From the NCBI GenBank assembly GCA_029552245.1, contig JAKPDW010000084.1, positions 62,001 through 126,000 on the forward strand: a DNA stretch of 64,000 bases. Reading direction: 5' to 3'. Below, in pieces: positions 12,976 through 62,141 of this stretch. Below the pieces are notes generated by a model that worked only from the letters and a program-made list of their open reading frames with translations, was not told the DNA's origin and did no database searches. Source of the DNA: Deltaproteobacteria bacterium (lineage in GTDB: Bacteria; Desulfobacterota; Desulfomonilia; UBA1062). The position numbers were made by a program, and so were the translations under genes. The stretch's first letter is position 1; every line of letters starts with the position of its first letter.

Positions 12976-13019
12976 CCTGAAACACCCGTCGTGGAGGGGG
13001 AAGTGCATCCTCCACGTTC

Positions 13020-13099
13020 TCCCTACGCTGGCATTACCCAGATCAGGTTCAAAGGGTATGATCTCAGGCTCCCAGGAGCCACCCCCGTGGTACCAGGGA
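13020..13099 (-). promoter_or_regulatory. TPP riboswitch (THI element)
   Basis: Read on the minus strand, the stretch begins with UCCCU, contains the core CUGAGA (13062-13067), then ACCC followed by GAACCUGAUCUGG, UAAUGCCAGCG and ends AGGGA. These are the universally conserved parts of the thiamine pyrophosphate aptamer, and the terminal UCCCU (13095-13099) and AGGGA (13020-13024) pair as helix P1. It controls the downstream thiamine operon together with the terminator at 12934-12975. This call rests on near-exact conservation of the motif. Confidence 0.97.
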
Positions 13100-24309: not shown

Positions 24310-24903
24310 AGCTGAACCGGTTCTTTCTCCCACCTCCTACGGGGTTTTCGCCGCACCGGGCGCCGACCCCCGGCCCGGACAGGTTCCCCGGTGTTCGTTC
24401 GTGCCTGGACACGCCCGAACCCCAGGTCATGGTGTCTCGAGCCCCGCATGGACGTATGTGCCGCTCCATGGGGACCGGGTGGGACGACGTGCCCTCGCAG
24501 GGGCCGGGACGATCGTACGCCCCGAGGCCGAACGCGGCTGTACGCCAAAGGCCGGCTTCGACAGGACAGGGAAACGCATGTGCAACGGGTATCGGCTCGC
24601 CGTGCGCTCAAGGCGACGAGGGCGCGACCGGGCCCGGTATCCAAGAAGAGGTCGTCGTGGATATCGGGAGACACGCACGTGCCATGCTTTCACTGAGCCG
24701 GATGGAGGCCCTTCAGGGAGGACCGGTCGTCCGACGACCTGTCAGAGGGGGGCGCCTGGATGTTCATGTGGTGAAGCGTCACCGGCGGGAGGCGCGAGGC
24801 CCACGAGTCCCCCCTGGGACGTGGGTTGCCGCGCCTTGCACGAGGGGCACCTTTCCACCTCCTGGAAGGCCGTACGAAGGGATGATGCGCCCGTTTGTCT
24901 CTG
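24310..24903. other. Intergenic between lysR and por, no gene seen
   Basis: About 590 bases of very GC-rich DNA with overlapping open frames that lack conserved motifs. No terminator with a T run is seen after the LysR gene. The por promoter follows at 24904-24933. Confidence 0.4.
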
Positions 24904-59339: not shown

Positions 59340-60914
59340 ATGGGGAAGAGGCGTGTGATCCTGGCCGTTGATCACGGAACCTCTGGGGTCAAGGCCTCGC
59401 TCGTGACCACCCAAGGCCGTGTGCTGGCCTCGGATGCCGAGAAGACCGAGGTGATCTTCCTTCCCGGGGGCGGGGCGGAGCAGGACCCGAGGTCATGGTG
59501 GGACGCCCTGGTCAGGGTGTCGAGGCGGCTCGTGCAGTCCCAAGCCTCAGGGTGCGACGAGATCGAGGCGGTCTGTGTCTCCAGCACCTTCTCGACCACG
59601 GTCGCCATCGACGAGAAGGGCGATCCCGTGATGAACGCGCTTACGTGGATGGACTCGAGGGGCGCGCCGCACGTGCGGAGACTCATGGGCGGCTTCCCTT
59701 CCTTCATGGGGTACTCCATCCCCAAGGCCCTGAGGTGGGTCAGCAGGACCTCGGGCGCACCCAGCCTCTCCGGGAAGGACGACATCGGCCACGTCCTGTT
59801 CGTGATGAACGAGATGCCCCGTGTCTACGAGAAGACCCGCCTCTTCCTCCCGAGCAAGGATTACCTGAACATGAGGCTCACGGGAGAGCGGGCAGCCACC
59901 TTCGACTCGGTCCACCTCTTCTGGCTCACCGACGTGAGGGATCTCGCCCGCATCCGCTACGACAAGGACCTCGTGCGCGAAAGCGGGATCGACCCTTCCA
60001 AGCTGCCCCCCCTGGTGGCCTCCACGGACGTGCTCGGGCACATCGCGCCAGGGGTCGCAGACGAGATGGGCCTGAGGCAGGGGGTCAAAGTGGTTGCCGG
60101 CTCGCCGGACCACCAGTGCGCGTGTATCGGCTCGGCGGCGGTGGAGGATTACCAGGGGCACCTCTACGTTGGCACCTCGTCGTGGGTGCAGTGCCTCGTC
60201 CCTTTCAAGAAGACGGACGTGTTGCATTCCATCGCGTCCTTCCCCACGGCGGTGGGCGACAGGTACCAGGCAGTGAACGAGCAGGACATGGCGGGAGGGG
60301 CCCTCGGGTTCCTCGCCGGTCTCGTGAACGGTTTCAGCGCGATGTCTGCCGGCGCCGCAGGGCAGGGGATCTCCTACAACGCGCTCGACGAGATCGCGAA
60401 AGGCGTCCCCCCGGGCAGCCGGGGCGTCGTCGTGACGCCGTGGCTCAACGGTGAGCGCACCCCCGTGGACGACATGCACGTGCGCGCGGGCATACACAAC
60501 CTCAGCACGACGACGACAGCCGAGGACATCGTCCGGGCCTTCCTCGAGGGCGTGGCCCTGAACACGCGCTGGAGCCTGAAGTATGTCGAGCGCTTCGTGG
60601 GCCGCAGGCTGGACCCCCTCACCATCGTGGGGGGCGGCGCATCGTCGGACGTGTGGTGCCGGATATTCGCCGACTGTCTCGGACGGGGCCTGAGGAGGCC
60701 GCCGGAGCCCATACGCGCCAACGCCCGCGGCGCCGCCTTCATCGCCGCCGTGGCGCTCAAGGACATCACGTTTTCGGACATCCCCTCGCTCATGGAGTAC
60801 GAGAGGGTCTTCGAGCCCGGGCGAGAGGCATCCCGCATCTACGACGAGCTCTTCGACGCGTTCGTGGACATCTACCGGCAAAACCGGGGGCTGTACCGGG
60901 CGCTCAACGGGTAG
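59340..60914 (+). CDS. FGGY family carbohydrate kinase (xylulokinase-like)
   Basis: This 524-residue sugar kinase has the ATP-binding start ILAVDHGTSGVKASLVTTQG, the substrate loop TWMDSRGAPHV, and the C-terminal motif LTIVGGGASSDVWCRIFADC, followed by RANARGAAFIAAV. It belongs to the xylulokinase/gluconokinase side of the FGGY superfamily; the sugar or polyol substrate cannot be read from sequence. It follows the saccharopine dehydrogenase-like gene by 20 bases, an unusual pairing that points to a shared pathway. Confidence 0.9.
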   Translation: MGKRRVILAVDHGTSGVKASLVTTQGRVLASDAEKTEVIFLPGGGAEQDPRSWWDALVRVSRRLVQSQASGCDEIEAVCVSSTFSTTVAIDEKGDPVMNALTWMDSRGAPHVRRLMGGFPSFMGYSIPKALRWVSRTSGAPSLSGKDDIGHVLFVMNEMPRVYEKTRLFLPSKDYLNMRLTGERAATFDSVHLFWLTDVRDLARIRYDKDLVRESGIDPSKLPPLVASTDVLGHIAPGVADEMGLRQGVKVVAGSPDHQCACIGSAAVEDYQGHLYVGTSSWVQCLVPFKKTDVLHSIASFPTAVGDRYQAVNEQDMAGGALGFLAGLVNGFSAMSAGAAGQGISYNALDEIAKGVPPGSRGVVVTPWLNGERTPVDDMHVRAGIHNLSTTTTAEDIVRAFLEGVALNTRWSLKYVERFVGRRLDPLTIVGGGASSDVWCRIFADCLGRGLRRPPEPIRANARGAAFIAAVALKDITFSDIPSLMEYERVFEPGREASRIYDELFDAFVDIYRQNRGLYRALNG

Positions 60915-61028: not shown

Positions 61029-61237
61029 GAATCTTCCCCGCACCCAGGGGTCATGGGCGCACCATGTGCGCATCGAGAAGGCATGCGCTCGAGTTTTCCC
61101 CGCACCCAGGGGTCAATGGCCGGGTTCGTGAATCCGGCGCGCGGTGATCTTGAGTTTTCCCCGCACCCAGGGGTCAGTGGTTGGCGTTGACGGTGACGAG
61201 GTACCAGGCGATGAGTTTTCCCCGCACCCAGGGGTCA
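61029..61237 (+). CRISPR. Orphan type I-E-like mini-CRISPR array
   Basis: Four copies of a 25-base unit lie at 61029-61053, 61091-61115, 61152-61176 and 61213-61237. Three are identical (GAGTTTTCCCCGCACCC followed by AGGGGTCA) and the first has two changes near its 5' end. Periods are 62, 61 and 61. Three spacers of 36-37 bases are all different. The CCCC...GGGG stem and the GAGTT start resemble type I-E repeats, which also have a 61-base period. No cas gene is present. The third spacer, read on the minus strand, has an open frame (IAWYLVTVNAN), consistent with foreign coding DNA; that is only suggestive. Confidence 0.72.
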
Positions 61238-61289
61238 GTGCCTCTCGCACCCCTCTCGGGCTCCTCGGCAAGACATCACCTTCAGGGGA

Positions 61290-61382
61290 GAGGCCTGCAA
61301 CCCATGGACACCCGGGACGAAGGGGGCTGGACTGGTCTCCATGATAGTCGAGGCCTGCAGCCCGTGGACGCCTCGGACGAAG
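61290..61382. repeat. Imperfect direct repeat pair, period 60
   Basis: Copies at 61290-61322 and 61350-61382 match at 28 of 33 positions, with the common frame GAGGCCTGCA, CCC, TGGAC and CGGACGAAG, separated by 27 unique bases. It lies 50 bases after the CRISPR-like array and has almost the same period, but the unit sequence is unrelated. Coding is unlikely: frames through it show a short peptide repeated (GVHGLQAS) with no homology that I recognise. Confidence 0.55.
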
Positions 61383-61532: not shown

Positions 61533-62141
61533 TCAGGTGTCCCAGCATCTCGCCCCGGACGCCTTCTGCAGGGCGCCGAGAGCGTGGTAGATCGCATGCG
61601 GCACGGGCAGCCTCAGGCCGAGGTACTTCATGGTGATGAACTCGATGATGATCCCGGCCTTGTCCACCGTGTCCATGTAGGCGAACTCTGCGGTCACCGG
61701 GAACTCCCTGATCGTCCCCCTGACCCAGGTGGGGCAGCCCTCCCGGTTCAGGGCGAGCGCCTCTTTGTCGACGTCACCGACCAGAAAGCCGAGGTGATGC
61801 ACCACCATGCGGCCCTGGGGATCCAGGTGCGAGGAGTAGAAGAGGGCGTCATCCAGGGGCTCTATGAGCTCGATCTGTACCCCCCTGAAAAAGGCGACCC
61901 CGAGCTTCACGGTGGGCTTCCCGAGCCTGCCCCGCTCGTTCCAGAACACCGGGCTCCCCTTGGCTATGAAGAAAGGTCCTATCCCCTTGTCCTCGAGCCG
62001 TGAGGCGCAGTCCTCGATCCCCGTCACCACGACGCCGAGCTGGTAGAGGAGGGGGAGTCGGTGTTCCTCCCTGAATCTCCCCGCTATCTTCGTCGCCTCG
62101 ATGGTGAAGTTGTCTGCCTCGAGCAGATCTTCCAGATACAC
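61533..62141 (-). CDS. VOC/glyoxalase-family protein
   Basis: This 202-residue protein looks like a vicinal-oxygen-chelate fold protein: the first module starts LLYQLGVVVTGIEDCASRLE and the second contains MVVHHLGFLVGDVDKEALAL. This pattern is seen in glyoxalases, dioxygenases and methylmalonyl-CoA epimerases. The actual reaction is unknown. The start is GTG 62141, preceded by GGGGGTGAG. It stands alone between the repeat region and the small Cys protein. Confidence 0.78.
   Translation of the reverse strand: MYLEDLLEADNFTIEATKIAGRFREEHRLPLLYQLGVVVTGIEDCASRLEDKGIGPFFIAKGSPVFWNERGRLGKPTVKLGVAFFRGVQIELIEPLDDALFYSSHLDPQGRMVVHHLGFLVGDVDKEALALNREGCPTWVRGTIREFPVTAEFAYMDTVDKAGIIIEFITMKYLGLRLPVPHAIYHALGALQKASGARCWDT

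Follow-up and report, generated by a model that had tools for sequence, protein, structure and literature searches.

The array at 61029-61240 of the window (the whole 64,000-nucleotide stretch analysed here) raises the question of what a short CRISPR-like array with type I-E geometry represents where I-E cas genes are not found. The first-pass annotation left three options, namely an array served in trans, a relic, or another kind of spaced repeat that only looks like CRISPR. We favour the relic, given a spacer copied from the own chromosome and the failure to find I-E cas genes: the locus is probably a true CRISPR array of type I-E style that is inert today, its cas genes having been lost. 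The earlier reading had neither the self-targeting spacer nor an unlinked type III-A locus, both of which were found in this study. The genome (G000) is a draft of 3.27 Mb in 95 contigs with 99.3% completeness, and the array is located on contig C95 (203,734 bases).

The array consists of four direct repeats with start-to-start distances of 62, 61 and 61 bases. Four copies of a 25-base repeat with a 61-62 base period had been described; the copy number and the spacing stand, but with the copies aligned in register the unit is 28 nt (GAGTTTTCCCCGCACCCAGGGGTCAGTG) and the array ends at 61240. The features of the array and its flanking genes are as follows.

59340-60914, plus strand: FGGY-family carbohydrate kinase gene, upstream and outside the array; sequence partly recognisable in three of the four congeners
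61029-61056, plus strand: repeat copy 1 (GAATCTTCCCCGCACCCAGGGGTCATGG), the most degenerate copy, altered at both ends
61057-61090, plus strand: spacer 1, 34 nt, with a short inverted repeat inside; protospacer not found, best viral match 24/34
61091-61118, plus strand: repeat copy 2, one base different from copies 3 and 4
61119-61151, plus strand: spacer 2, 33 nt, with a short inverted repeat inside; protospacer not found, best viral matches 24-25/33
61152-61179, plus strand: repeat copy 3
61180-61212, plus strand: spacer 3, 33 nt, self-targeting; 34/34 match (61180-61213) to G000:C63:108779-108812(-)
61213-61240, plus strand: repeat copy 4, the same as copy 3 over 28 nt
61533-62141, minus strand: glyoxalase/VOC-family protein gene, downstream and outside the array

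In a CRISPR array, direct repeats of 23-47 nt that are almost the same recur at regular intervals, and the spacers between them are unique and nearly constant in length; the locus shows both properties. The three spacers (34, 33 and 33 nt), already called unique, have no similarity to each other. The 22-nt repeat core TTTTCCCCGCACCCAGGGGTCA occurs four times, three times exactly and once with one mismatch, versus 0 occurrences in 100 dinucleotide-preserving shuffles.

Other elements were also observed in the window. A pair of 33-nt repeats, 85% identical and 60 bases apart (61290-61322 and 61350-61382), begins 50 bases past the last CRISPR repeat; its copies agree at 28/33 positions, and the best of 300 shuffles reached 24. 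A TPP riboswitch aptamer (RF00059, 64.9 bits) is located at 13002-13096 on the minus strand, and a short tandem repeat with 1.9 copies of a 31-base unit at 24450-24508.

The source of spacer 3 was found in the own genome. Of the 1,901 bases around the array that were compared with the genome, 1.65 kb of them flank, only 61180-61213 had a second match there. These bases, which are spacer 3 and one repeat base, match the minus strand of contig C63 (E 1.2e-10) from the first base after repeat 3 to one base into repeat 4. Spacer 3 thus has a source outside the array and ends at the repeat edges, as expected of at least one spacer in a CRISPR array. We know of no process but spacer acquisition that yields an exact 34-base chromosomal copy cut at repeat edges. 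This bounded match, combined with a geometry and a repeat that resemble I-E, identifies the locus as a true CRISPR array and all but excludes the look-alike option. Judging by the match, spacer 3 is self-derived, captured from the own chromosome.

The matching sequence is part of an intact ORF of 335 codons whose product has AIRS and AIRS_C domains. This product is AIR-synthase-related, belongs to the HypE/ThiL/SelD superfamily and reaches the cut-off of no named NCBIfam equivalog; the gene just before it is, as we take it from its sequence, FolE2-like. Spacer 3 on the plus strand is antisense to the AIR-synthase-related gene. Each of the four congeners has orthologous sequence, 89-95% identical, and lacks the array. 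Spacers conserved among strains, which had been named as grounds against CRISPR, were thus not seen, since the congeners share the target gene and not the array.

It is scarcely credible that the locus arose by chance or as an assembly artefact. The assembly is a draft of metagenome type, which could be suspected of such errors, but the repeats appeared in 0/100 shuffles and the E value of the spacer 3 match is far from chance. Moreover, the array lies within a 204-kb contig, and the composition of the target contig C63 matches (r 0.95).

Spacers 1 and 2 gave no match above chance in the own genome and no significant match among phages and plasmids, the databases in which a spacer search had been advised. 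An exact 20-mer scan of IMG/VR returned one-sided matches of 20-21 bases, which fell to 24/34, 24/33 and 25/33 over the full spacer; a viral origin based on them was rejected and the matches were taken as chance. The candidate that spacer 2 is a tRNA T-arm was also rejected, as a tRNA was absent near the viral match. Both spacers open with an inverted repeat (GCGCACCATGTGCGC at 61057-61076 and GCCGGGTTCGTGAATCCGGC at 61119-61138), which is odd for two of three spacers.

Within the genome and the family, the repeat was found at this locus only. A search for the same repeat beside cas genes elsewhere in the genome, as had been proposed, found the core in this array only, and so the repeat is not the scattered isolated motif that would have spoken against CRISPR. 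With up to 3 mismatches allowed, the core was not found in the four congeners and 19 other family members (23 genomes). Four distant phylum mates have single isolated core sites (L005-L008); no arrays of at least 3 copies were found around L006-L008, and these pattern matches were rejected as same-repeat arrays because they are single sites. When one genome per species was scanned for the 15-nt core occurring twice in succession, only one myxobacterial element (L009) was detected. This element, at L009:4470-4655, is a tandem unit of 62 bases; it has a CCCCGCACCCAGGGG core and mimics I-E geometry. It was rejected as the same repeat since its 'spacer' is copied too, which makes it a different kind of element and a likely false positive for CRISPR finders.

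The resemblance to I-E arrays noted from the geometry is borne out by the repeat itself. Like I-E arrays, the locus has a repeat of 28-29 nt and a period of about 61 nt. Shuffle comparison places the repeat sequence in the I-E class: in plus orientation, 0/2000 shuffles scored as high as the repeat does when compared with the I-E repeat of G055, a phylum mate that shares the stretch TTCCCCGCACCC. The I-E repeats of G010, G014/G020 and G115 gave p values of 0.0025-0.02, and those of G028 and G068 were weaker (p 0.08 and 0.13). No similarity was found to three type III repeats of the family. Some I-C-like repeats likewise score at p 0.005-0.02, so the I-E class call rests on the G055 match, the 28-nt unit and the 61-nt period. 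The stable 6-7 bp hairpin of I-E repeats is not present; the stem here is 4 bp with -6.9 kcal/mol, compared with -12.9 to -15.1 kcal/mol for the canonical I-E repeat hairpins tested. An AT-rich leader was not found beside either end, where the flanks have 67-68% GC like their surroundings, and no promoter-like site was recognisable in the flanks. A leader is required for the activity of an array, not for its being counted as an array or a relic. The evidence on orientation is conflicting, with the repeat similarity favouring plus and the degenerate left end copy favouring minus.

These features also bear on whether the locus is a spaced repeat independent of Cas proteins, with a third interval that by coincidence is an antisense RNA to the AIR-synthase-related gene or works as one. 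Such an element would fit the plus-strand antisense orientation of spacer 3 and the inverted repeats in spacers 1 and 2. However, the match stops at the repeat edges, as spacer capture and not antisense evolution predicts, no promoter-like site was found, and the repeat is I-E-like. We therefore give this explanation very little credence.

We then consider whether I-E proteins could serve the array. Profile searches of the whole genome did not find Cas1, Cas7e or Cse1 in the own genome or the four congeners, and the same family searches gave matches in control genomes and relatives. Cas3 was not found in the own genome either; the Cas3_HD matches were the HD domain of Csm1 and one below-cut-off HD match. 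A weak Cas3_HD match on contig C52, tried as Cas3, turned out to be Csm1. The earlier statement that no cas gene is present in 64 kb thus holds for Cas1, Cas7e, Cse1 and the Cas3 HD domain, but it does not extend to the genome, which has a csm1-5 operon on C52. Among family members, G010, G014, G018 and G020 have I-E systems, and 4 of the 19 family genomes listed from outside this genus have I-E operons with long arrays.

Such an operon may be in the cell and serve the array, either missed by the draft assembly or carried on a plasmid, with the flank of the protospacer acting as a non-working PAM. The PAM of E. coli I-E is AAG or ATG. Here the 5' flank of the protospacer is ATC in plus orientation and GAC in minus orientation, and this difference, like the 95 contigs and the I-E operons with long arrays in related genomes, suits a missed operon. 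We nevertheless consider it unlikely, as completeness is 99.3%, Cas1, Cas7e and Cse1 are all absent from five genomes of the genus (the own genome and four congeners), and the I-E repeats of the family are canonical, unlike this one.

The only cas locus found in the own genome is a type III-A csm1-csm2-csm3-csm4-csm5 operon at G000:C52:278-6437 (L101), on a contig of 6,622 bases unlinked to the array. Csm1 scored 627 bits with its NCBIfam model, and the models for Csm2, Csm3, Csm4 and Csm5 exceeded their cut-offs. An apparent start of a further CRISPR-associated gene is seen at the contig end. Cas6 was not found with PF10040, a model that matches only 2/14 controls, and the own genome yielded no array with type III repeats of the class seen in the family. 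The tetranucleotide profile of C52 is atypical (r 0.70, while 6.6-kb pieces of the window score at least 0.78), and the contig may therefore be mis-binned or recently acquired. The array has neither the type III repeat class of the lineage nor linkage to csm or cas6, and is not the type III-A array of this locus by these measures.

The array could still supply guides to the C52 Csm complex. Read in plus direction, the spacer-3 guide would be antisense to the AIR-synthase-related mRNA and would silence an own gene. A complete csm1-5 set in the same bin, where no array with the family's class of type III repeats was found, makes this conceivable, as do the antisense orientation of spacer 3 and a protospacer flank without pairing to the repeat-derived tag. 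But an antisense orientation has a 50% probability by chance, the repeat is I-E-like and unlike the family's type III repeats, Cas6 was not found by the PF10040 search, and the composition of C52 leaves its place in this genome in doubt. We judge this use of the array highly improbable. More doubtful still is the extended proposal that the complex takes guides from an orphan array of I-E type, including one antisense to an own metabolic-type gene, which would turn a relic into a gene regulator.

A relic remains the likely explanation. The array would once have been extended by the adaptation machinery of an I-E system that was later lost, and one insertion captured 33 bp of the own chromosome, as shown by the 34/34 match that ends at the repeat edges. 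Self-targeting may then have selected for the loss of the cas operon. We infer this last step with less strength than the lost I-E system and the inertness of the array, although a loss caused by self-targeting is plausible. The array is most likely inert today, as I-E effector and adaptation genes were not found, the hairpin is weak, and an AT-rich leader and a recognisable promoter are absent; this inertness would explain how the cell tolerates a perfect match to an intact gene of its own. Were cognate I-E proteins to return, the AIR-synthase-related gene might be cleaved under the guidance of spacer 3, given a flank that works as a PAM; since ATC and GAC differ from AAG/ATG, even a returned effector might not cut. 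Several observations weigh against a relic. The draft has 95 contigs and could lack a cas operon that stands next to a long array. The core, weak stem included, is common to all four repeats, so it was an active system that copied the variant repeat. No protospacer was found for either spacer 1 or spacer 2, and the orientation evidence is conflicting.

Like the type I-E arrays beside cas operons in G010, G014, G020, G028 and G055, the array has a 28-29 nt repeat with a CCCC...GGGG core, spacers of 32-34 nt and a 61-nt period. It differs from them in that I-E cas genes were not found, an AT-rich leader is absent and there are only three spacers. The hairpin is 4 bp here and 7 in the known repeats, whose 3' end is ATGAACCG instead of TCAGTG. 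Spacer 1 of Pelobacter carbinolicus likewise matches a conserved own gene, hisS, and is expressed and inhibits growth in a transgenic relative (PMC2923632); the spacer described here lies in a genome where I-E cas genes were not found. Orphan I-F arrays of E. coli, as summarised in PMC8616872 from Almendros et al. 2016, remain after cas loss and have spacers that match I-F cas genes. Like the present locus, they are described there as small arrays that outlive their cas genes with spacers indicating self-directed events, whereas the target here is a chromosomal metabolic-type gene.

According to the surveys as quoted in PMC6990116 and PMC8616872, about 7-18% of genomes have self-targeting spacers. 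The usual reasons for tolerance are lacking cas genes, a missing PAM or mutated repeats (PMC6990116; PMC8616872). The locus offers a clean natural case in which a self-targeting spacer perfectly matches an intact gene that is conserved and non-mobile, in a lineage that yielded no I-E cas genes, a pattern expected if CRISPR autoimmunity drives system loss. The unlinked csm1-5 genes in the bin raise the question of whether a type III effector can use guides of a relic I-E array. Like the self-targeting spacers of Stern et al. 2010 and later surveys, as presented in PMC6990116, spacer 3 perfectly matches a non-mobile chromosomal gene. Nothing about it is fundamentally different from the spacers reviewed there, and as one further example the array with its self-targeting spacer adds a case to a documented class and opens no new one.
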